Shown here: piece by piece, positions 9,322 through 26,335 of the stretch
How the letters are laid out: the number at the start of each line of letters is the position of its first letter
Position numbering within the stretch: position 1 is the first letter of the stretch
The notes under the pieces: generated by a model
Database searches by the model: none
What the model was told of the DNA's origin: nothing
The model's input: the letters and a program-made list of their open reading frames with translations, nothing else
Translations under genes and position numbers: made by a program
Assembly (NCBI GenBank): GCA_002862645.1
Contig: PKDQ01000020.1
Span: forward strand, 1 to 64,000
Length of the DNA stretch: 64,000 nucleotides
Direction: 5' to 3'
Origin: Flavobacteriaceae bacterium
GTDB taxonomy: Bacteria > Bacteroidota > Bacteroidia > Flavobacteriales > Flavobacteriaceae

Positions 9322-9600
9322 TTAACGTTTAGACACCTTGTTGTTGCTGATGCCTCGTTGTCTGCTGCATTTAAAGCGCCCTACTTCCTCATCGCGTTTT
9401 TTTAAGTGTTTAGTTTTACGTCCCTGAACACGCTTTCGCCAGAGTTTAAAACTATTTGACTTCATGTTGTTTCGCATGATGGTAATGACCTCTTGCTCTT
9501 TAAGTCCAAACTGCATGCTAATCGCATCAAAAGGGGTTCGGTCTTCCCAGCCCATTTCGATAATCCGATCTATATCTCTTAAACTAAGTTCTTTTTTCAT
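9322..9600 (-). CDS. DUF2805 (TIGR03643) family protein
   Basis: 92 residues. The first 55 match the DUF2805/TIGR03643 family: 'RDIDRIIEMGWEDRTPFDAI' and then QFGLKEQEVITIMR, a small helical domain resembling a helix-turn-helix, ending in 'SFKLWRKRV'. The C-terminal 35 residues are very basic and low in complexity, suggesting nucleic-acid binding (inference). Function unknown. From memory the family tends to sit next to photolyase/cryptochrome genes. Its ATG overlaps the stop of the upstream cryptochrome gene by four bases, so it is the last intact gene of the operon. Confidence 0.85.
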   Translation of the reverse strand: MKKELSLRDIDRIIEMGWEDRTPFDAISMQFGLKEQEVITIMRNNMKSNSFKLWRKRVQGRKTKHLKKRDEEVGRFKCSRQRGISNNKVSKR

Positions 9601-11069
9601 CTATCCATAATGTTTTCTCTGTCTGGCAGCGTATGCATGGCCAATATACGCTTACTCTCTATTCTCACGTTAGGATTGCGTTTCATGTGCCACAAAATGT
9701 TTGAGGCGTGATTATAAGTTTCTTTAGTTGCTACGATGGTATTTGGATAATCTTTGCCTAATACACATCCGTAGGCTTCTTGTTCGATTGCTGTCATGGA
9801 CCATGGCTCAAGTACAAATGGTGTGGGAAGTTTTGCCAATTCTGGTACCCATTTTCGTATAAAAGCTCCTTCTTTATCGTGTTCAAGCGCATTTTTGGTT
9901 GGGTTGTAAATACGCAACATATTGATGCCCGTTTCACCTGCTTGCATTTGAAATTGCGGATAGTGAATTCCAGGTTCAAAATCCAAAAACTGTTTGCCCA
10001 AAAATACAACGCCCATTTGCCAAGGTTGCCACAAATGATGTGTAAAAAAAGAAACAACCAAGGCGCGCATCCTGAAATTCAAATAGCCTGTTTTAACAAC
10101 ACAACGCATACTAGCATCAACGAGTGGATAGCCTGTTGTTCCTGTTTTCCAGGCATTGATATATTCCGTGTTCACTTCTTTTTTTAGTTGACGGAAACCA
10201 ATATTTACACTTTCAAATTCCATACGTGCTTCCATCTCAAATTTTTGAATAAAATGTGCTTGCCATCGCAATCTTGATGTAAAGGCATTTAGCTGAAATC
10301 CACAAGCACCCTGTGCTTTTGCTTGCTTAGCACGCTGCCATACATAGCGAACCGAAAGATTTCCCCATGCAATGTAGGGCGAGACCCGACCGCAATGTGT
10401 TCGTGCTGCTTCAGGTTTTGAGATAGATTGCTGGTATTTTTTATGTCGCTGCTTTAAAAAGCTGTCTAAATAGGCCAATCCAGTTTTGGTACCGCCTGCT
10501 TGTATGCCATCTAGCTTTTTAGGTTCCAGTACCTCTTGTGTTAGGTTTATATTTTTAGCAGTTGTAAAGCAAGCTGGTGTTGCCTCAAATGAACGGATAG
10601 GCTGCATCATATAGCTGGTCCATGTTTTGCGCCAGTTGTTGCGGTTGCTGATGCCTCTTGTTACGCCATTATTTATGTATTCTTTACAGACAATGCGCTG
10701 AGATACGCACCATTTTTTTACGACTTTGTCACGCATATAGGTTGCGTCTATTCCCGTTTCTTGCATAGAGAACAAGGCGTTGATATTCATGCTGGCAGCA
10801 ATACGTTCCAGTACTGATATCACCTCGTCTTTATAAACATACACTTGGGTGTTAAATTGTTTGAGTTCTTTGTTTAAGGCTATCAATGACTGTGCAATAA
10901 AATTATGATGTCGTTTGTGGTAGTGCGGATTTTTTTCGAGGCTTGGCTCCATTACGTAAAGTAATAATAGCGGTAAGCCGCTGTTTATGGCGTCTTGTAG
11001 TCCTTCATTGTCTAGAAGTCGTAAGTCTCTTTTAAACCAAAAAACGTTAATTTCTTTTTTAGAATGCAT
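9597..11069 (-). CDS. Divergent cryptochrome/photolyase-family flavoprotein
   Basis: 490 residues. The N-terminal alpha/beta domain begins 'INVFWFKRDLRLLDNEGLQ' (photolyase antenna domain) and the C-terminal FAD-binding helical domain contains '[27 protein letters not shown]'. Where class I photolyases carry the flavin-site signature DAAPYFRIFNP, this protein reads TGINMLRIYNP after 'GIHYPQFQMQAGE', so it is a separate branch, not a standard CPD photolyase. It may act in repair or signalling; neither can be decided from sequence. It starts at ATG 11069, inside the end of the FeS photolyase gene (11-base overlap), and is coupled to DUF2805. Confidence 0.85.
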   Translation of the reverse strand: MHSKKEINVFWFKRDLRLLDNEGLQDAINSGLPLLLLYVMEPSLEKNPHYHKRHHNFIAQSLIALNKELKQFNTQVYVYKDEVISVLERIAASMNINALFSMQETGIDATYMRDKVVKKWCVSQRIVCKEYINNGVTRGISNRNNWRKTWTSYMMQPIRSFEATPACFTTAKNINLTQEVLEPKKLDGIQAGGTKTGLAYLDSFLKQRHKKYQQSISKPEAARTHCGRVSPYIAWGNLSVRYVWQRAKQAKAQGACGFQLNAFTSRLRWQAHFIQKFEMEARMEFESVNIGFRQLKKEVNTEYINAWKTGTTGYPLVDASMRCVVKTGYLNFRMRALVVSFFTHHLWQPWQMGVVFLGKQFLDFEPGIHYPQFQMQAGETGINMLRIYNPTKNALEHDKEGAFIRKWVPELAKLPTPFVLEPWSMTAIEQEAYGCVLGKDYPNTIVATKETYNHASNILWHMKRNPNVRIESKRILAMHTLPDRENIMDR

Positions 11070-12588
11070 CGGGATTTTCCATGATTTGGTAAGCCCTTTC
11101 TTTAATGCGAGCCAATTCTTCTGGGTTGATTTTGCCCAGTAGGTTATACATCATACCCATGCGGTTGTTTCCCCGCAACTCTTCTCTTTTGTCATCTAAA
11201 AAATTCCAGTATAAGCTGTTAAAGGGGCAGGCATTTTCGCCTGTGCGTTGTTTTTTATCATAACTACAACCCTTGCAGTAGTTACTCATTTTGTTCACAT
11301 ATGAACCCGATGAAACATAGGGTTTGGTGGCTAAAATACCCCCATCTGCATACTGACTCATACCTCTAGTGTTAGGCAGCTGTACCCATTCTACCGCATC
11401 AGCGTAAATACCTAAATACCAATGATCAACTTCATCGGGATTCGTTTGCAGTAGCAATGCAAAATTTCCCGTAATCATCAGGCGTTGAATGTGGTGTGCA
11501 TATGCGTGCTCCAAGCTATTCTCAATGCTAGTCTTTAGGCAATTCATTTTGGTTTCACCTGTCCAGTAAAAGGCAGGTAATGTTCCAAAGTTATTGAGCT
11601 CATTTTTGTTCTTGTATTCTGGCATTTCTTTCCAGTACAGACCCCTGATGTATTCACGCCAACCCAATATCTGACGTACAAACCCTTCGATTTGCGATAA
11701 ACTGATACGATCGTTGTTTTTTCGATATGCTGCAATTGCATGTTCAATAACTTCGGCAGGGTCTATCAATTTGACATTTAAACTAAAAGAAATACGCGCA
11801 TGAAAAAGATTTGTTTCGTCTTGATGCATGGCATCTTGAAAGGTGCCAAAGTCTTGCAGCAAATAGGCACAGAAGTAATCGAGTTGCGCTAGCGAGTCTT
11901 TTCTTGTCGTAGCAAAGAGAAATTCATCTTCGTTAAATGTGCCTATGGTGCTAATGTTTGCTGCTTTTACTTGTGGATAGATTTCTTTTGCCAAGGTTGC
12001 ATCTGGCTTGTAGGGCGGAGGAATGGTTCCGCCTTTCCAAGTATTTCGGTTAAATTTATCGTAATTCCAACTGCCCCCTTCAGGTTGCCCATCTATCATA
12101 AGGTATTGATGCTTTTTACGCATATAACGGTAGAAAAACTCCATCACTAAAGATTTTTTTCCTTCATAAAAGGTCTTTAGCTCATCACGGGTGGTTAGGA
12201 AGTGTTCTGTGTCATAGGTTTTTGTGGGTACTTCCAATTGAGCACTAATTCCCTCCAGTTGTTTGTCTAAGCGATATTCATCAGGCTGTTGGTAGGCAAA
12301 TGTTTTGGCATTAAACAAGCTGATTGCTTTTTCAATATTTTTTTGCAGGCCTTGGGTGTTGTTTGGATCATCTATGGTATAGTATAGAACCTGATGTCCA
12401 TCTTCTTCAAGTTGTCTGGAAAAGCTTCGCATGGCTGCAAAAAATGCCACTACTTTCTGAATATGGTGCTTGACGTAGTCAGTTTCTTGACGCATTTCAA
12501 ACATCACATAGCACACATTGTCATCAAGTGCCGTAAACCAGATATGCTTTTCGTTGAGTTGATCGCCAAGTATTAGTCTTATTTCCAT
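11059..12588 (-). CDS. Iron-sulfur bacterial cryptochrome/photolyase (FeS-BCP, PhrB-type 6-4 photolyase)
   Basis: 509 residues. It opens '[18 protein letters not shown]', typical of the DPRP domain (PF04244) family. Four cysteines stand at C350, C438, C441 and C454 ('MNC', 'NYCKGC', 'ENACPF'), the same numbering that binds the 4Fe-4S cluster in Agrobacterium PhrB, a (6-4) photolyase. The FAD-binding helical core precedes the cluster, with 'NTRGMSQYADGG' near residue 406. Prediction: light-driven repair of (6-4) photoproducts, carrying FAD and 4Fe-4S and probably a ribolumazine antenna. That would fit the ribH gene at 23.3 kb (inference). It overlaps the DASH gene stop by one base (TAATG). Confidence 0.93.
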   Translation of the reverse strand: MEIRLILGDQLNEKHIWFTALDDNVCYVMFEMRQETDYVKHHIQKVVAFFAAMRSFSRQLEEDGHQVLYYTIDDPNNTQGLQKNIEKAISLFNAKTFAYQQPDEYRLDKQLEGISAQLEVPTKTYDTEHFLTTRDELKTFYEGKKSLVMEFFYRYMRKKHQYLMIDGQPEGGSWNYDKFNRNTWKGGTIPPPYKPDATLAKEIYPQVKAANISTIGTFNEDEFLFATTRKDSLAQLDYFCAYLLQDFGTFQDAMHQDETNLFHARISFSLNVKLIDPAEVIEHAIAAYRKNNDRISLSQIEGFVRQILGWREYIRGLYWKEMPEYKNKNELNNFGTLPAFYWTGETKMNCLKTSIENSLEHAYAHHIQRLMITGNFALLLQTNPDEVDHWYLGIYADAVEWVQLPNTRGMSQYADGGILATKPYVSSGSYVNKMSNYCKGCSYDKKQRTGENACPFNSLYWNFLDDKREELRGNNRMGMMYNLLGKINPEELARIKERAYQIMENPDAF

Positions 12589-13886
12589 TAAAATAAAGTT
12601 GTTTGAAGCCAGGTTTTTTGATATTTATCATTGGGGTCGTACCGCTCGGCCTGCCAAGCGATGTCAAATTTTCTGTCTCTGGGATCATTGCCAACACCTG
12701 CGTTATACATCCAGTTTCCATAATTGCTGTGGACATCGTAATCTATCAGCATGGCTTCGAAGTATGCAGCGCCTATACGCCAATCCAAGTGCCATTCTTT
12801 TGCAAAGTAACTCGCTACATTTTGACGACCACGATTGCTCATAAATCCAGTGAGCGCCAGCTCGCGCATATTTGCATTTATAAAGGGCTCGGGTGTTCTC
12901 CCATCAATCCATTGCTGTACAAATGTTTGGTTTGTTTTCCAGACGTAATCATTTTGCAACAAGCCCCCAAGCTTAAAAATAGCAGTGCCGTGCTTCTTAG
13001 AAATATATTTGAAATAGTCACGCCATATGAGCTCAAAAATCAACCAATAGGTTGAATCATTTTTAGTAACCTCTTTTTCGTATTTTTTTACCTCATGGTA
13101 AATCGAAACAGGGGAAATGGATCCAAATGCCAACCATATTGAAAACTTTGAGCTATACTTTTTTCCCAATAACCCGTTTCTGGTTTTTTTGTAGTAGGAC
13201 AATTGGTTGGTGTTCCAAAAATATTTTTCTAGTCGTTCCCACGCAGCTTCTTCACCCCCTTTGAAAGGAATGGCTGTTCTCTTATCTTCTGTTACCATTT
13301 CATAACCCAAACTACTTAACGTAGGCAATTCAGGAACGCTAGCCAAGACATTTTCCTCGGGCATAGGCGCCGGAATGGGCAGTAGCAAACGCACGCTTAT
13401 GTGCTTTTCACATTTTTTTCTAAACACCGTAAATACTTCTGGTACATCTTCGACTTGCATGGGTATGTCATCTGGATGGAATAAAAATTGGTCGTAATAC
13501 CAGTGTTTTGCTATTCCCTTTGGGATACTTGCGTTATCATCAAGCTCTTCTTGTGTCCACTCTTTTTGCCCGTAGATTGCTGTGACATTGTAGGTTTCTT
13601 GTAGTTCTTTTAGCAAGGCTCCTAGACGGCCAACCTTTACCCAAAGCGATATGTTGAGCTTTGCTAAATCCTTTTGAAGTTGCGTTAAAGTTTGTAGGAG
13701 GAACGCAGCTCGAAAAGCCTCCATTTTCTTAAAACCCCATTGGGTTGGTTGTAGCCAATGCTCAGGCAAATGATATACCGCAATAACTCTATCGTGGGCC
13801 TCTACGGCTTGCGATAAACTGTGTTGATCACGAACACGCAAATCGTTTCGAAACCAAACTAGTCCTGTTGTTTTTGCTTTTTGCAT
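12588..13886 (-). CDS. DASH-type cryptochrome
   Basis: 432 residues. '[21 protein letters not shown]' begins the antenna domain. 'HEVKKYEKE' and later '[19 protein letters not shown]', '[22 protein letters not shown]' and '[24 protein letters not shown]' are characteristic of cryptochrome-DASH, which repairs CPDs mainly in single-stranded DNA and may signal light. FAD and a methenyl-tetrahydrofolate antenna are expected. ATG 13886 lies 28 bases inside the small DUF2256 gene, in another frame; no later ATG would keep the conserved first strand. Confidence 0.93.
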
Positions 13887-14005
13887 CTTTTACTACAATA
13901 TTTAACATTTTCCCATTCTTTGCTCCATTTCTTTCGCCAAGTAAAAGGCCTATTGCAGCTCACACACATTTTTTGAGGCAAGTCTGCTTTTTTAACACCT
14001 CTCAT
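13859..14005 (-). CDS. DUF2256 small zinc-finger-like protein
   Basis: 48 residues, easily missed because of its size. It opens [14 protein letters not shown] and holds a CxxC pair (C14, C17) and a CxxxC pair (C37, C41) separated by 'RPFTWRKKW', the DUF2256 signature; it ends in a lysine/glutamine tail. A zinc ribbon or treble-clef fold is likely. Members are commonly found next to photolyase genes, from memory of genome neighbourhoods; the function is unknown. ATG overlaps the photolyase stop by four bases and the gene overlaps the DASH start by 28, so it is part of the tightly packed operon. Confidence 0.9.
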
Positions 14006-15294
14006 GACGCGAGTCCTGCCTTATATGTTTCTAAGCATCTCAGGCGTGCCATTTTATGATCAACCATTGGGCTGGGGTAATCCAACGATTGGTACTCGGG
14101 CACCCACTTTTTTATGTAGGTGTGTTGTTTGTCGAATTTTTTTACCTGTTCCGTTGGGTTAAATACGCGGAAGTATGGTGCAGCATCAACACCGCAGCCA
14201 GCCACCCATTGCCAGTTTCCTACATTGCTTGATTGTTCATAGTCTAGTAGTTTTTCAGCAAAGTAGGCCTCGCCCCATCGCCAATCAATAAGTAAGTGTT
14301 TGCACAGGAAACTGCCCACCAGCATACGCACCCTGTTGTGCATAAAACCTGTTTGATTGAGTTCGCGCATTCCCGCGTCCACCAATGGATATCCCGTGTT
14401 ACCTTCGCACCATTTTGAAAAATCTGTTTCGTTGTTTCGCCATTCAATACGATCGTACTGGGGTTTAAAACTCAATGTAGTTGTATGGGGGAAGTGCCAA
14501 AGAATTTGCATAAAAAACTCACGCCAAATCAATTCTTTTAGGAAAGTAGGATTGCTGCTTTTTTTAGCTTTTTTCACTATGTCTCTGATAGATAGGGTGC
14601 CAAATCGCAAGTGAATTCCCAGTCGGCTTGTACCGTCAATCGCAGGAAAATTCCGCACCGCATCATATGCGTCAATTAACGATAAGCTATGGTTGGGTTC
14701 TGGCGCATGATGAGTGGGTTTTTCAAAGCCCATAGCTTCTAATGTCGGTATGTTTGGCAGTATTTTTTTGTAAAGCTTGTTAAGAAGTGGTGCTGTGGGA
14801 TACTCTGGCAACCCATCTTCGGCTTCCTTGGCCATCCACACTCTTGAAAATGGGGTATAAACCCTGTAGGGTGTACCGTCTTTTTTCAGCACTTCATCTG
14901 GCGCAAAAATTACTTGATCCTTGAATGTTTTAAAGCCAATACCTTTAGCAGCAAGGATCCCTTTGATTTTTAAGTCTCTTGCTGTGGCATAGGGTTCGTA
15001 GTCTTCGTTCGTGTAGACTGCAGTTATGTTGTGTTCCTGGCACCACTGCGGAATAAGTTTTGATGGATTTCCTTTGGCCACGCACATGCTACTGCCATGT
15101 ACTTCGCTTTCTTGTTGCATTTTGGCAATGTGTCGATGAATAAAATCAACACGGGCATCGTCTTTGGGTATCTTTTCCAGGATGGACTCGTCAAATACAA
15201 ATGCGGGTAACACTTCGTCTGCATCGGTAAGTGCGTTGCAGAAACCCGCATTATCGTGAAAGCGCAAATCGCGACGAAACCAAAATAATATCAT
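14002..15294 (-). CDS. phrB: Deoxyribodipyrimidine photolyase (class I CPD photolyase)
   Basis: 430 residues, somewhat shorter than the usual 450-475. It uses blue light and reduced FAD to split cyclobutane pyrimidine dimers. Signatures: N-terminal '[21 protein letters not shown]', '[19 protein letters not shown]', '[17 protein letters not shown]', '[26 protein letters not shown]' and the flavin-site block '[20 protein letters not shown]' followed by VFNP. All canonical parts are intact, in contrast to the divergent paralogue at 9597-11069. Its start overlaps the SDR stop by four bases. Confidence 0.95.
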
Positions 15295-15992
15295 CCACTA
15301 ATGTTTAAAGAAGACATACCGCCGTCAAGACCAAGTATTTGTCCGGTCATCCAACTGCTTTTGTCTGTGAGTAAAAAGGCAGCCAATTGCGCTACATCCT
15401 CGGTTGTGCCTATTCTTTTTAAAGGGTGTCTTAAGGAAGCCTTTTCTTTTTTGGCCTCATTATTTAAAAATCTGTTTGCCAGCGGGGTGTCTGTGATGGA
15501 GGGTGCAATAACGTTCACACGTACCTTTGGTGCCCATTCCGCAGCCAAAGACCGCGCCAATCCCTCTAGTGCTCCTTTTGATGCTGCCACACTTGCATGA
15601 AAGGGCATGCCTGTTTGTACTGCAACGGTGCTAAACAATACCACACTTGCTTGTTCGCTTGCCGCTAATAGCGGCTGAATGCTTTGTAAGCAGCGCACGG
15701 CACCCATTACATTGATTTCAAAATCATTTGTAAAGGCTTCGGGCTTTAATCCTCTGAATGGTCTGAGGTTAATGCTACCGGGACAGTAAGCAAATCCATC
15801 AATTTTTGAAGGCAATTGATCTAAGGAAAGCGTGTCCTCTCGCACGTCAAAAGGAATGTGAGTCACTTGTTTGCCAGCCAATCCTTCGTTGGTTCTGGAA
15901 GCGACAATTATTTCAGATCCTTCAGGAAGTTGGTCAATGATGTCTTTGCCAATTCCATAGCTTCCGCCAATTAGTAAGTATGTTTTGCTCAT
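15291..15992 (-). CDS. Short-chain dehydrogenase/reductase-like protein lacking the catalytic Tyr
   Basis: 233 residues with a Rossmann fold. The cofactor motif GGSYGIG (residues 9-15), N94 in 'FEINVMGA' and S121 in 'VLFSTVAVQTG' are conserved. The YxxxK element reads 'FHASVAASKGAL': Val135 stands where the catalytic Tyr should be, while K139 is kept. The C-terminus 'WMTGQILGLDGGM' is typical of classical SDRs. Without Tyr, ordinary dehydrogenase chemistry is unlikely, so a binding, regulatory or altered catalytic role is inferred. It sits between SRPBCC and phrB with four-base overlaps; SDR genes also accompany photolyases in proteobacterial light-induced clusters. Confidence 0.85.
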   Translation of the reverse strand: MSKTYLLIGGSYGIGKDIIDQLPEGSEIIVASRTNEGLAGKQVTHIPFDVREDTLSLDQLPSKIDGFAYCPGSINLRPFRGLKPEAFTNDFEINVMGAVRCLQSIQPLLAASEQASVVLFSTVAVQTGMPFHASVAASKGALEGLARSLAAEWAPKVRVNVIAPSITDTPLANRFLNNEAKKEKASLRHPLKRIGTTEDVAQLAAFLLTDKSSWMTGQILGLDGGMSSLNISG

Positions 15993-16447
15993 GATGTTGT
16001 TTTAAAAATTTCGTTGAGTGCTTTTTCTCTGTAGTCAAATATTTGTTTCACCTTAAAACCCACAAAAAGAATATGTGCAAACCAGCCTAGAGGGCCCAAA
16101 GGAAGTTTATAGTCTACTATATCTTCCATCATAACCCCAGTGGCTGTTTTGTGTATAAAATGCTTGTGATGCCAAAAAGAATATGGCCCAAAGCGTTGTT
16201 CATCGACAAAATAAGCCCCTTCAGCTACGTGCGTGATTTCAGTAACCCAGCGAAAGGGGATGCCTAAAATCGGTGTTAGTCTGTATTGAATGATCTGCCC
16301 AGGGAACATGCTGCGATCTGCACCCGAAATGATGTCAAACCCCATATAGTCTGGCGTAATGCGTTTTAAGTTCTTGGGATCGGAAAGAAATTCCCAAGCC
16401 TTATCCATTGTGATGGGCAGTTCTTGTTTGGAAGTATATCGGTACAT
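15989..16447 (-). CDS. SRPBCC-family ligand-binding protein
   Basis: 152 residues from ATG 16447; an upstream in-frame TTG (16465) is possible but lies inside the promoter. 'QELPITMDKAWEFLSDPKNLKRITPDYMGFDI' and 'GIPFRWVTEITH' mark the SRPBCC fold, specifically the group often labelled cell-division inhibitor or ligand-binding SRPBCC. The 'F.DEQRFGPYSFWHHKHFI' segment is typical of this group. First gene of the photolyase operon; its promoter and a putative operator lie at 16463-16509. Ligand unknown. Such proteins recur in photolyase clusters, so a lipid or isoprenoid ligand in the light response is conceivable (inference). Confidence 0.85.
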   Translation of the reverse strand: MYRYTSKQELPITMDKAWEFLSDPKNLKRITPDYMGFDIISGADRSMFPGQIIQYRLTPILGIPFRWVTEITHVAEGAYFVDEQRFGPYSFWHHKHFIHKTATGVMMEDIVDYKLPLGPLGWFAHILFVGFKVKQIFDYREKALNEIFKTTS

Positions 16448-16462
16448 AGTATAGGTTTTATA

Positions 16463-16494
16463 CAAATATACCTATTTCGTTTAACGATATTCAA
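16463..16494 (-). promoter_or_regulatory. Promoter of the photolyase/cryptochrome operon
   Basis: On the minus strand, TTG (16494-16492) and TATATTTG (16470-16463) are separated by 21 bases, fitting the Bacteroidota -33/-7 consensus. The -7 element ends 15 bases before ATG 16447. The -33 element lies inside the putative operator 16476-16509, so a protein bound there would block RNA polymerase. Confidence 0.65.
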
Positions 16495-16509
16495 ATAACA
16501 TTAAACAAA
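16476..16509. promoter_or_regulatory. Putative operator of the photolyase operon, shared with the CarH-like gene
   Basis: Plus strand: TTCGTTTAAC (16476-16485), 14 bases, ATTAAACAAA (16500-16509), an imperfect inverted repeat. The right arm and the next four bases (ATTA) are identical to 26021-26034 upstream of the CarH-like regulator. The left arm matches 8 of 10, with the same 14-base spacing. It overlaps the -33 element of the operon promoter. Confidence 0.6.
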
Positions 16510-23258: not shown

Positions 23259-23726
23259 ATGGCGACTGCTCAACACGGTCCATTTAATTTAAATGCGGTG
23301 CCTAGCGCTGCAGCTCTTCGGATTGCCGTTGTTGTTTCTGAGTGGAATGCTGAAATAACAGCTAATTTATACGAAGGTGCCCACGCTGTACTTCAACAAA
23401 AGGGTTGTTCTGAGATACAGCGTATAGACGTGCCGGGTAGTTTTGAACTTATTTATGGGTGCAAAGTAGCTATGAATGCAGGTTTCGATGCTGTCATTGC
23501 ATTAGGAAGTGTAATAAGAGGCGAAACAGCACATTTTGACTATGTGTGTGAAGCAGTAGCTTCAGGCATAAAAGATCTTAATCTTCAAGGCAAATTTCCT
23601 GTTATTTTTGGAGTACTCACCGATAATACCCTAGCACAAGCCCAAGCGAGAAGTGGTGGGGAACTAGGAAATAAGGGGGCGGAAGCAGCTGTTGCAGCCA
23701 TCAAAATGGCTACACTTGCTATTTAA
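23259..23726 (+). CDS. ribH: 6,7-dimethyl-8-ribityllumazine synthase
   Basis: 155 residues. It condenses 5-amino-6-ribitylamino-uracil with dihydroxybutanone phosphate, the penultimate riboflavin step. 'VVVSEWNAEITANLYEGA', 'VPGSFELIYGCKVAM', 'ALGSVIRGETAHFDYVCEA' (with the catalytic His) and 'FGVLTDNTLAQAQARSG' are intact. The product is also the antenna chromophore of FeS-BCP photolyases such as the one at 11059-12588. Its end overlaps that of crtZ, which converges, by eight bases. Confidence 0.96.
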   Translation: MATAQHGPFNLNAVPSAAALRIAVVVSEWNAEITANLYEGAHAVLQQKGCSEIQRIDVPGSFELIYGCKVAMNAGFDAVIALGSVIRGETAHFDYVCEAVASGIKDLNLQGKFPVIFGVLTDNTLAQAQARSGGELGNKGAEAAVAAIKMATLAI

Positions 23727-24165
23727 AATACTTTAAGGGAACCCACAGCATACCGAAACATTCCCCTTTTGTTTTGTTAAGGTGTTTGTGGTGGATTTTG
23801 TGAGCTCGTCGTACGCCTCGCGCATAGCGGTTGTTGACATTGCGCCATATTTTAAAACGCTGGTGAATAAAGATGTCATGCACCATAAAGTAAGCCAACC
23901 CGTAGGTAAATATACCTATGCCAATGGCTAGTCCTGGAGTAAAACCATATTCTCCCCAGAAGACAACACACCCCACACTTACCACGGCATAAAAGATAAA
24001 AAAGAGGTCGTTACGCTCAAACCAAGAATTGTGATTTTTGTGATGGTGGTCTTTGTGGAGCGACCATAAAAAACCATGCATGACATACTTATGGCTAAAC
24101 CACGCCATAAATTCCATAGTGAAAAACGTTAGAAAAATTACACCAATTTGGGCAATCAGGGACAT
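23719..24165 (-). CDS. crtZ: Beta-carotene hydroxylase
   Basis: 148 residues. This membrane di-iron hydroxylase adds 3-hydroxyl groups to beta-ionone rings, giving zeaxanthin. The histidine clusters are visible: H25-x4-H30, H37-x2-HH and later 'HDIFIHQRF' and 'RAHKIHHKH'. About four hydrophobic segments. It follows crtB after nine bases on the minus strand, so the two form an operon. No lycopene cyclase or phytoene desaturase lies nearby. Confidence 0.93.
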   Translation of the reverse strand: MSLIAQIGVIFLTFFTMEFMAWFSHKYVMHGFLWSLHKDHHHKNHNSWFERNDLFFIFYAVVSVGCVVFWGEYGFTPGLAIGIGIFTYGLAYFMVHDIFIHQRFKIWRNVNNRYARGVRRAHKIHHKHLNKTKGECFGMLWVPLKYFK

Positions 24166-24174
24166 GGTCTTAAG

Positions 24175-25014
24175 TTATAATAAATTGAATTGATATCGAA
24201 TAAATGAACGTGCTAACACATCTACCTTTTGGTAATTCGGCACGCGAATTCTTTTTGCCTTAATCTGTGTTGAAGGTGTTTTTTTAAGTTTTTTCAGCAA
24301 ACGTAAATAATACTTGTATGCGGTATAGACACCAAATTTAGCCTCATCTGGTAATTGAAAAATGCCCTTTAAGCCAGCGCTGAAGTCAGCTTCAATTTCT
24401 TTGATAATAGTTTGTTTCGAGTGTTCATCGAAAGCGTTCATGTCAACGTTGGGAAAATAGGAGCGCTCTAAATGTTCATGATCTGCTTTTAGATCCCTCA
24501 AGAAATTAACCTTTTGGAACGCCGAGCCCAAACGCATGGCAGCATCTTTTAATGCGTCGAACTGTACATCATCCCCTTTGACAAAAACCTTGAGACACAT
24601 CAAACCTACTACATCAGCAGATCCGTATATATATGCTTTGTACTCCTCGTCAGTTAAATAGGTTTTCTTAGACAAATCCCAATGCATACTTTGCATAAAC
24701 GCTTTAATGTATTCGCGGTCAATATTGTAGCGGTGAACTGTTTCTTGAAAACTGTTTAAAATAGGGTTTAGGCTTATCTTATCTGACAAAGCTTGTTCTA
24801 GGGATTGCTCAAAGCGTACAAATAATTCGGCTTTATTATAATCGTGAAAAGTGTCAACGATCTCATCGGCGAAACGGACAAACCCATAGATGTTGTAGAT
24901 GTCTTGTCGGATTTCATTTGAAAGTATACGAGTAGCGAGTGAAAAAGAGGTACTGTATGAATCAGTAACGAGTTTACTGCTTTGATGGGAAACTTTATCG
25001 AATAGCGCTTTCAT
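24175..25014 (-). CDS. crtB: Phytoene synthase
   Basis: 279 residues. It condenses two geranylgeranyl diphosphates to phytoene, the first committed step of C40 carotenoid synthesis. Two Asp-rich motifs are present: D50-EIV-D54 in 'RFADEIVDTF' and D174-LKA-D178 in 'NFLRDLKADHE'. The N-terminal 'SYSTSFSLATRIL' is typical of CrtB. The promoter region upstream holds TTTGACA and a near-consensus TATATTTA plus a perfect TGACC-TGT-GGTCA palindrome. It lies directly downstream of the CarH-like regulator gene on the same strand. Confidence 0.95.
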   Translation of the reverse strand: MKALFDKVSHQSSKLVTDSYSTSFSLATRILSNEIRQDIYNIYGFVRFADEIVDTFHDYNKAELFVRFEQSLEQALSDKISLNPILNSFQETVHRYNIDREYIKAFMQSMHWDLSKKTYLTDEEYKAYIYGSADVVGLMCLKVFVKGDDVQFDALKDAAMRLGSAFQKVNFLRDLKADHEHLERSYFPNVDMNAFDEHSKQTIIKEIEADFSAGLKGIFQLPDEAKFGVYTAYKYYLRLLKKLKKTPSTQIKAKRIRVPNYQKVDVLARSFIRYQFNLL

Positions 25015-25060
25015 ATTTTTGCCTTGATTCTTGTAAATATAAAATAATTATCGTGTCAAA

Positions 25061-25073
25061 TGACCTGTGGTCA
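25061..25073. promoter_or_regulatory. 13-base perfect palindrome upstream of crtB
   Basis: TGACC-TGT-GGTCA, centred about 50 bases upstream of the crtB start and next to a TTTGACA -33-like element. It may be an operator for crtB. It does not resemble the ATTAAACAAA-type site of the CarH-like gene, so a different regulator would be expected if it is functional. Confidence 0.4.
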
Positions 25074-25091
25074 GAAAATGTTTACTAGTTC

Positions 25092-25997
25092 CTAAACTAA
25101 GTTCAAGGCGTAAAGCACATCATCAATAGATTTGAACTTGCGTATTTTATCAGGCATTTCATCTGATATGAATTGAACTTGATATCCTAAAATCCATAAC
25201 TCACTGTCAATATTTTCAATGATTTCTGAATTAAAAGTATTTAAATAAGCTTTGATTTTGTCCTGCGTTGGTTCAATAGTGAAATAGGTAATAAATGTAA
25301 TGGGTTCTCCTATGTCCACTAAATTATTTAAACTTTCGATTGGGACAGATTGACCCAAGAACACACATTGAAAACCATTGTTTAGTACTTCGTATTGTAG
25401 ATACAATAACCCTAACTCGTGAATTTCATTATCCGGTAAAAATAAAACAAATCTGCGATCTGTTCTGCGAGTGGATTTTTGCTGTAAATCCTCGCACATG
25501 GCGTGAATTTTTTGTTTTACTAAACTCGTAATAAAGTGTTCGTGCGATGGGCTGATAGAATTGGTTTGCCACAGCACACCCAATTCATTCATTAATGGTA
25601 CAAATACGTTTTTAAATACTTCACTAAATGAAAACTGCTCGAGTAAATCATTAAAGGTTTTGGTAAACAACCTCTGATCGAAATTGATCATGGCCAACTT
25701 AAATAAGCCTATGGACCAATCATCTGCATTCTTGTTAATGGTAATCTTGTGTACGTTTTCAGTTATCTCTTGCGAGCTGAATGATGCGATTTTTGAAATT
25801 TTGTACCCATTGTTATACAAAAGGGTAACGTTCAGAAGTTTCTGTAGGTTTTCAAGATTATAGAGGCGTATGTTGGTGTCTGTTCGTTCGGGCTCAAATA
25901 GATTGTATCGCTTTTCCCATATGCGAATGGTATGTGCCTTGATACCTGAGAGATGCTCAAAGTTCTTTATGCTAAAGCTATTCTTAACGCGATCCAT
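25092..25997 (-). CDS. CarH/LitR-like MerR regulator with cobalamin-binding domain
   Basis: 301 residues. The N-terminal MerR helix-turn-helix (about 8-75, 'HTIRIWEKRYNLFEPERTD') is followed by a helical B12-cap domain and a Rossmann-like B12-binding domain. The photoreceptor motif W143-x9-E153-H154 and the lower-ligand motif E191-I-H193-E-L-G196 are both present. CarH proteins use adenosylcobalamin to repress carotenoid genes in the dark and release DNA in light. The His following the Trp, which binds cobalt after photolysis in Thermus CarH (H132), is Gln144 here. It sits upstream of crtB and crtZ. A putative operator overlaps its own promoter. Confidence 0.9.
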   Translation of the reverse strand: MDRVKNSFSIKNFEHLSGIKAHTIRIWEKRYNLFEPERTDTNIRLYNLENLQKLLNVTLLYNNGYKISKIASFSSQEITENVHKITINKNADDWSIGLFKLAMINFDQRLFTKTFNDLLEQFSFSEVFKNVFVPLMNELGVLWQTNSISPSHEHFITSLVKQKIHAMCEDLQQKSTRRTDRRFVLFLPDNEIHELGLLYLQYEVLNNGFQCVFLGQSVPIESLNNLVDIGEPITFITYFTIEPTQDKIKAYLNTFNSEIIENIDSELWILGYQVQFISDEMPDKIRKFKSIDDVLYALNLV

Positions 25998-26030
25998 TTG
26001 TTTAATGTTTAATAAACACTATTAAACAAA
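25997..26030. promoter_or_regulatory. Putative operator of the CarH-like gene
   Basis: Perfect 10-base inverted repeat TTTGTTTAAT (25997-26006) / ATTAAACAAA (26021-26030) with a 14-base spacer that contains another GTTTAATA/TATTAAAC dyad (26007-26014, 26020-26027). It can also be read as tandem GTTTAAT units (26000 and 26007). It abuts the start codon and overlaps the -7 element, as expected of an autorepressor site. Confidence 0.62.
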
Positions 26031-26034
26031 ATTA
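26027..26034 (-). promoter_or_regulatory. -7 element of the CarH-like gene promoter
   Basis: Minus-strand TAATTTTG matches TAnnTTTG and ends 29 bases before ATG 25997. It overlaps the right arm of the operator by four bases. A TTTTG about 24 bases upstream is the -33 candidate. Confidence 0.5.
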
Positions 26035-26080
26035 CAAAAAATTTATTTATAAATTCTTCAAAACAAAATAAATAATAGAG

Positions 26081-26166
26081 TGCGCACGAGAGGAATCGAA
26101 CCTCCACGGGATTTAACTCCCACTAGGCCCTCAACCTAGCGCGTCTACCAATTCCGCCACGTGCGC
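26081..26166 (-). tRNA. tRNA-Leu (anticodon GAG)
   Basis: 86-nt class II tRNA on the minus strand. Acceptor stem GCGCACG pairs perfectly with CGTGCGC, discriminator A. The anticodon stem CTAGG/CCTAG encloses TTGAGGG with GAG, and a long variable arm is present (about 12 nt). First of three adjacent tRNA genes on this strand when read from the 3' side. Confidence 0.95.
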
Positions 26167-26181
26167 TTTTGAATGAGGAAG

Positions 26182-26254
26182 TGACTTGGCTGGGGTTCGA
26201 ACCCAGGACCCTCTCCTTAAAAGGGAGATGCTCTACCAGCTGAGCTACCAAGTC
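26182..26254 (-). tRNA. tRNA-Lys (anticodon TTT), copy 1
   Basis: 73-nt cloverleaf on the minus strand: acceptor GACTTGG/CCAAGTC, anticodon stem TCTCC/GGAGA around CTTTTAA, T-loop TTCGAAC, discriminator A. Identical in sequence to the copy at 26263-26335. Only 15 bases separate it from tRNA-Leu. Confidence 0.96.
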
Positions 26255-26262
26255 TGTTGTTG

Positions 26263-26335
26263 TGACTTGGCTGGGGTTCGAACCCAGGACCCTCTCCTTA
26301 AAAGGGAGATGCTCTACCAGCTGAGCTACCAAGTC
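26263..26335 (-). tRNA. tRNA-Lys (anticodon TTT), copy 2
   Basis: Exact duplicate of the neighbouring tRNA-Lys, eight bases apart (spacer 26255-26262). The pair forms a perfect 74-base direct repeat. On the minus strand the cluster order is Lys-Lys-Leu, probably one transcript. Confidence 0.96.

Follow-up and report, generated by a model that had tools for sequence, protein, structure and literature searches.

Introduction

In CarH of Thermus thermophilus, the Trp of the upper-face cobalamin motif is followed by His132, which forms a bis-His adduct after photolysis. A CarH-like gene in a Flavobacteriaceae bacterium (assembly GCA_002862645.1) encodes Gln144 at the corresponding position. The gene lies within the 64,000 nucleotides of contig PKDQ01000020.1 that we analysed, hereafter the window. 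Is the Gln a peculiarity of this protein, and what would the light state be in its presence? An earlier reading of the DNA letters, made before any database search (the sequence-only reading), had expected the protein to bind adenosylcobalamin (AdoCbl) and had suggested that its light state may be reversible or disassemble differently.

Identity of the CarH-like protein

The gene is encoded on the minus strand, with its ATG at 25997 and its stop codon ending at 25092 (Table 1). The plus-strand reading contains many stops. A match was present in 321 of 397 family genomes at E 1e-10 and Q144 is conserved, so a chance ORF was ruled out. Pfam matched MerR_1 (E 3.7e-12) and the four-helix bundle B12-binding_2 (E 2.2e-11), and its Rossmann B12-binding model gave no match at E 0.01. 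The top PDB relatives by phmmer were the Thermus CarH/LitR entries 3whp and 5c8d (E 1.4e-12 and 1.7e-12). The phmmer alignment paired GVLWQTNSISPSHEHF with Thermus GEAWHRGEIGVAEEHL without gaps, which places Q144 opposite H132. The MAFFT alignment with the HB8 protein (NC_006462, L228) gave the identical register, gap-free from W143 to H154. The correspondence proposed by the sequence-only reading thus holds in both programs, and an adduct of the His132 type cannot form at position 144.

Translation and alignment also confirmed the two motifs that it had listed. The upper-face motif Wx9EH is present as W143 and E153-H154, and the lower-ligand motif D/ExHx2G is present as E191-x-H193-x2-G196. 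We found W143, E153, H154 and H193 invariant in 80/80 named loci (those most similar to the window protein, 80 out of at least 594). In its second half, S-x-T/V ... GG, the B12 motif is retained only in part, as T237-Y-F and L-G271. Clade relatives mostly have S or T at 237 and a single G at 271.

An AlphaFold2 model, for which the alignment included 60 relatives, reached a mean pLDDT of 89.7 and a pTM of 0.83. Together with Pfam, it predicts a MerR-type DNA-binding domain, then a four-helix bundle, then a Rossmann B12 module. Thermus CarH was the top structural match (Z 21.1, rmsd 2.5 Å, 198 residues aligned in the cobalamin-binding region). Many CarH entries followed, then two photoreceptors that lack the upper His, 8jbs, a Chloracidobacterium MerR protein (Z 19.7), and 8j2w, a photocobilin from Saccharothrix (Z 19.6). 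After these came a methionine synthase (Z 16.8), the highest-ranking B12 protein that does not depend on light. The modelled Rossmann module aligned to CarH 79-277, and the protein is thus not reduced to the four-helix bundle, as class II LitR proteins are. Lack of a cobalamin supply was ruled out by a PduO-type adenosyltransferase in the same assembly (PF01923, E 1.7e-58). This family was found in 10/10 carH-positive and also in 10/14 carH-negative family genomes tested, and its co-occurrence with carH is therefore a weak argument. Judged by signature residues, predicted fold and adenosyltransferase gene, the protein likely binds AdoCbl, as had been expected.

The best-scoring NCBIfam family was the CarH equivalog, with 66 bits vs a cut-off of 400. 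This model is narrow, and the low score bars the NCBI name CarH, not membership of the wider class. Since the upper His is missing and the score lies below this cut-off, the protein should not be called a Thermus-type CarH. It is a His-less member of CarH/LitR class I, in a variant that extends over its clade, and it would be expected to work in a CarH-like way. Like Thermus CarH (HB8 pTT27; 5c8d/5c8e/5c8f), it has a MerR domain, a four-helix bundle with Wx9EH, and ExHx2G, and phytoene synthase and photolyase genes are among the neighbours of both. Unlike Thermus CarH, it has Gln144 instead of His132 and has partly lost S-x-V...GG. The identity between the two is about 22% over 73% of the protein.

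Table 1. Features of the carH locus and the photolyase/cryptochrome cluster in the window
Feature	Position	Strand	Remarks
carH-like MerR/B12-binding regulator	25092..25997	-	301 aa; coordinates include the stop codon; ORF reading, Pfam, phmmer, AlphaFold2 model
Codons W143 (25571-25569) and Q144 (25568-25566, CAA)	25566..25571	-	ORF translation
Codons H152, E153, H154 (Ado-contact EH pair and clade-typical His)	25536..25544	-	Translation, alignment
Codons E191-I-H193-E-L-G196, lower-ligand motif	25410..25427	-	Translation, alignment
-7-like element TAATTTTG (26034-26027) overlapping palindrome GTTTAA (26027-26022) N16 TTAAAC (26005-26000)	26000..26034	-	
Second operator-like palindrome GTTTAA N16 TTAAAC	16479..16506	-	Before SRPBCC-SDR-photolyase cluster
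tRNA-Lys, tRNA-Lys, tRNA-Leu	26080..26335	-	Upstream of carH promoter
crtB-like phytoene synthase	24175..25014	-	77 bp downstream of carH; Pfam SQS_PSY E 2.3e-48
Presumed crtZ-like beta-carotene hydroxylase	23719..24165	-	Homologue downstream of carH in 76/80 named loci (best 80 of at least 594)
Presumed SRPBCC-like, SDR, photolyase/cryptochrome cluster	9597..16465	-	Profile searches; predicted second regulon unit
Photolyase-type protein 1	14002-15294	-	
DASH cryptochrome	12588-13886	-	
Photolyase-related protein DPRP	11059-12588	-	
Photolyase-type protein 2	9597-11069	-	

Residue 144 in the clade and the phylum

Among the family matches listed, 27 genomes reached no better than E 1e-43 to 1e-53, as would a paralogue. 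The phylum search gave matches in 96 of 395 genomes at E 1e-8, the weakest of them partial, and those weaker than E 1e-15, mostly partial, were left out of the locus set. The set comprised 232 loci and 224 distinct proteins. We took 220 as Bacteroidota, and 211 of these had W143, E153-H154 and H193 intact. Two loci in metagenome bins titled Rhizobium sp. (L194) and Klebsiella pneumoniae (L196) were included in the counts. Both were flavobacterial-type carH, 53% identical, and their bins are probably mislabelled or mixed.

The tabulation of position 144 that the sequence-only reading had called for gave Gln 148, Gly 16, Leu 11 and His 4 among the 211 proteins, with Gln over-represented overall because loci were sampled by similarity to the window protein. 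In the 141 relatives with at least 40% identity to it, we found Gln 135, Leu 3, His 2 and Ser 1, and a private mutation was thus ruled out. Comparatively, an evenly drawn phylum sample had 56 loci outside the family, 49 of them signature-intact, with Gln 11, Leu 9, Lys 5, Arg 4, His 1 and others. The replacement of the upper His is real. Gln is the norm of the clade and not peculiar to this protein, and in the Bacteroidota sampled His is the exception. Position 144 ranked 30th of 151 in conservation among the 141 close relatives and 141st of 151 in the other 70. Such conservation within the clade, at an otherwise nearly free site, argues for some role of Gln144.

Two quick trees, one of 119 and one of 115 proteins out of the 224, were built, and many of their inner branches were weak. 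Rows at least 68% identical to a kept row, rows shorter than 240 residues, and L231, L232 and L040 were omitted, and the second run also omitted four long branches. The tree built without column 144 contained a 59-row clade (SH-aLRT 95) with 54 Gln, 3 His, 1 Ser and 1 Leu. Its His rows, L041 and the two Kordia loci L181 and L212, were nested among Gln rows, and at least four changes between His and non-His were needed on the whole tree. It seems from this nesting, with Thermus as outgroup, that these His residues are re-gains. The codon is CAT in Kordia and CAA in the window, one base apart. The Kordia proteins carry a natural Trp-His within the Gln clade and offer a contrast for the bis-His question.

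A paralogous group in the same family mostly has Gly at 144 (15 of 91 family loci from genome searches). Its members (L044-L060, L146, L147, and L103 outside the family) have Gly, Thr or Ser after the Trp, and several of these loci have a common promoter, TTTGTTTAACTTTG...TTAGAC. Other Bacteroidota relatives (L105, L107, L112, L125, L126, L128, L136) lost the lower-ligand His, and some of them also part of Wx9EH. These are perhaps B12-independent regulators. We also searched viral contigs for relatives of the CarH-like protein, and none was confirmed.

Gene neighbourhood

The gene heads the string carH-crtB-crtZ. Of the 80 named loci (80 out of at least 594, chosen by similarity), 78 have a crtB gene downstream of carH in the same orientation. 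The best NCBIfam score of the crtB-like protein was with HpnD, followed by CrtB models, all below cut-off. The product of the third gene, which we take to be crtZ-like, had no Pfam match at E 0.01 and no NCBIfam match at E 0.001. No crtI was present between carH and crtB in the window (25015-25091), and a search of the assembly (80.5% complete) did not find one. A crtI-size ORF lies at this place in three of five loci examined in detail (L154, L172, L181), the one of L154 above the NCBIfam cut-off for phytoene desaturase. It is missing in L148 and L151, the two nearest to the window. In the window's own genus and the two genera next to it crtI is on another contig, and one further genus has it next to carH. 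The divergent gene upstream of carH is presumably aroK-like.

Four photolyase/cryptochrome-type genes occupy 9.6-15.3 kb of the window, behind an SDR gene and a head gene whose product we take to be SRPBCC-like. The latter protein had no Pfam or NCBIfam match. Ten of the 80 named loci have photolyase-like genes downstream of carH in the same orientation.

A palindrome common to both units

We describe here a new operator-like palindrome common to the carH promoter and the photolyase/cryptochrome cluster. The sequence TAATTTTGTTTAATAGTGTTTATTAAACATTAAAC lies upstream of carH and ends two bases 5′ of the start codon. The -7 consensus of Bacteroidota is TAnnTTTG, and a -7-like element overlaps the palindrome. 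Promoters of the sigma-70 type were rejected, with 7 found vs 9.0 in shuffles. The form TAnnTTTGTTTA precedes 112 of 137 clade carH genes vs 4 of 85 others. In the window, TTTGTTTAA-N16-TTAAAC was exact only at carH (both strands) and at 16479-16509. With up to two mismatches it had 4 matches vs 0.91 by chance, and 2 of 100 shuffles reached 4. The pattern TTGTTTAA-N15..17-TTAAAC had 3 matches (2 sites, one on both strands); 200 dinucleotide shuffles averaged 0.02. The half-pattern TTTGTTTAAY alone was not above chance in the window (3 vs 1.59 expected).

Across the assembly, TTGTTTAA-N15..17-TTAAAC occurred in three places, carH, the photolyase cluster and htpG-fabH, and a reversed-pattern control in none. 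Eight near genomes had 43 exact matches vs 4 for the reversed pattern. Their sites were at carH in 8/8, before the SRPBCC gene in 7/8 and between htpG and fabH in 8/8, the last two gene names being profile-confirmed for the window's own genome only. When one mismatch was allowed, the full pattern outnumbered the control by only 22 to 11 in four genomes and equalled it in genome G067 (5 each), where no exact palindrome precedes the SRPBCC gene. In the wider family, the exact palindrome precedes 14 of 30 SRPBCC genes (the 30 best among 168 matching genomes; shuffled mean 0.05). Twelve of these 30 upstream regions had no palindrome at up to one mismatch, and the promoter form TAnnTTTGTTTA was present before only 2 of the 30. 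At carH itself, the exact palindrome was found in 7/9 nearest relatives and 10/137 of the wider clade.

The htpG (Hsp90)/fabH palindrome was seen at L318 (own genome, contig C7, site 64023-64053), L236, L241, L251, L287, L316, L320 and L321. It perhaps reflects a stress link or another regulator, and is not obviously part of a light regulon. Four genomes have an msrA-folE pair of the L315 type, and in two of them the palindrome also stands before it (L315, about 1622-1653; L323, about 940-967). The own genome and G342 have the pair without the site. In Pseudomonas putida, folE, photolyase and cryptochrome genes are among the light-inducible genes under LitR-type regulators (PMC9758184, available sections). 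LitR/PplR of that species resembles the window protein as a MerR-type light regulator, and the msrA-folE palindrome in two relatives of the window recalls its targets. Unlike the window protein, LitR of P. putida is described in those sections as class II and thought not to bind B12, with LOV proteins involved.

The published CarH operator consists of tandem 11-bp direct repeats, nnnnTnnACAn, three of them in Thermus; the element in the window is an inverted repeat. Its half-site TAAACA fits TnnACA, and the distance between its arms is 22 bp, or 2 x 11. We infer that the CarH-like protein binds this palindrome. The shared sites make carH and the photolyase/cryptochrome cluster a predicted light regulon. 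It might instead be that the protein acts as we propose below and the palindrome belongs to a different regulator, for instance as an oxidative-stress or heat-shock site, which is compatible with the other readings as well. The htpG/fabH and msrA-folE sites would fit this. Presence at carH in every near genome, the match to TnnACA and the 22-bp spacing speak against it, and we consider it rather doubtful.

The light state

Several relatives without the upper His have been characterized, and the following holds for the sections of the cited papers available to us. Many, not all, CarH homologues have this His (PMC9304148, PMC11796333). The residue after the Trp is Arg in CtMerR, Gln in SasPcob and Tyr in AbDPcob, and all three bind AdoCbl; green light elicits a response in each, with a peak at 356 nm (PMC11796333). 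CtMerR goes from a dark tetramer to a light monomer with a hydroxo/aquo light state (PMC11796333). In its light state SasPcob is monomeric, its Co(III) carries water/hydroxide, and the large rearrangement of CarH does not occur (PMC10979010). The H132A variant of Thermus CarH has a hydroxylated Co(III) light state and is mostly tetrameric, which contradicts an earlier report cited in the same paper (PMC10442372).

CtMerR of Chloracidobacterium thermophilum (8jbs, 8jbt) is, like the window protein, a His-less CarH-like MerR protein. It differs by its Arg, and its DNA-binding domain is described, in the part of the paper available, as unlike that of Thermus CarH. SasPcob of Saccharothrix syringae (8j2w, 8j2x) shares the Gln, and differs by a biliverdin-binding region and, in the available text, by being described without a DNA-binding domain. 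As the His-less relatives bind AdoCbl and end in an aquo/hydroxo state, a bis-His light state is unlikely in the window protein. The structural inference of the sequence-only reading therefore has direct precedent, and no new chemistry as such is involved. Our literature search on flavobacterial or Bacteroidota CarH and light transcriptomes, which covered mostly non-subscription literature, had no study of a clade protein among the matches listed, and it brought up no data on light response, DNA binding or expression of one. Carotenoids are light-induced in Chryseobacterium lacus, where a LitR-like gene was only speculated on in the available sections of PMC7064467.

The suggested reversibility of the light state found no support. 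Re-formation of the Co-C bond requires new AdoCbl. For the His-less relatives, the available parts of PMC10442372, PMC11796333, PMC10979010 and PMC9304148 report no re-formation of AdoCbl. For the suggested difference in disassembly the precedents diverge, since CtMerR, with Arg at the position, still falls apart into monomers and Thermus H132A mostly does not.

We consider the protein, with a probability of about two in three, to repress carotenoid and photolyase genes in the dark in an AdoCbl-dependent manner and to have a light state that lacks the upper His. In the dark, AdoCbl would be held by H193 from below, with W143, E153 and H154 around the adenosyl group. The loaded protein would oligomerise, occupy the GTTTAA/TTAAAC half-sites in front of its own unit, carH-crtB-crtZ, and of the photolyase/cryptochrome cluster, and repress both. 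In the light, the Co-C bond would be cleaved and the adenosyl group lost. Because residue 144 is Gln, the end state would be aquo/hydroxo-cobalamin without a second His, its ligand perhaps in a hydrogen bond with Q144 or E153. Departure of the adenosyl group would by itself weaken the oligomer and free the promoters. The role of Gln144 may be to keep the water ligand in place or to make a contact in the dark state. Some results stand against this dark repressor. Thermus H132A stays mostly tetrameric in light, so a His-less sensor might keep its DNA. The exact carH palindrome is mostly confined to the nearest relatives, the palindrome also occurs at htpG/fabH, S-x-T/V...GG is partly lost, and the NCBIfam score and the unreported Rossmann match are as given above.

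Alternatively, the protein might depend on cobalamin and not on light, or sense the level of AdoCbl. The missing bis-His switch and the site at htpG/fabH would suit such a regulator, and the organism may scavenge cobalamin. This reading is improbable, as AdoCbl is intrinsically photolabile, the neighbours are photolyase/cryptochrome and carotenoid genes, and all four signature-bearing relatives in the available sections of PMC11796333 respond to green light. It is also quite improbable that a bis-His light state forms after all, with H152 or H154 as the upper ligand. H152 is typical of the clade (125/141 close relatives; Glu in Thermus) and adjoins E153/H154, and the corresponding Glu/His helix shifts in SasPcob on illumination (PMC10979010, available sections). 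However, H152 neighbours two pocket-facing residues on the helix and should point away, and its place there makes it an unlikely cobalt ligand. Residue 152 is Asn or Gln in the other 16 of the 141, and independent pairs gave no support for co-variation of Q144 with H152. A B12-independent regulator working with a partner, as Myxococcus CarA or class II LitR do, is very improbable: the B12 motif has eroded in its second half and CarA too retains part of the motif (PMC9304148, available text), but CarA lost the Trp and flanking residues of Wx9EH, whereas the window protein keeps W143 and the four signature residues are invariant in the named loci.

Implications

Gln144 might have been selected for an unlocked light state. 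Spent cobalamin would leave or be swapped for new AdoCbl, so that the sensor resets at dusk without new protein, and Kordia would have independently re-acquired the His. We hold this idea only tentatively and think it more doubtful than probable by a wide measure; the exchange of spent cobalamin for new AdoCbl is a conjecture.

The bis-His light state is excluded at its usual position in 207 of the 211 signature-intact Bacteroidota proteins sampled, and the Thermus mechanism is therefore unlikely to be general. His (Kordia), Ser and Leu occur as natural exceptions in the Gln clade, which makes the clade a ready mutational series. The predicted operators provide a testable light regulon for marine flavobacteria.
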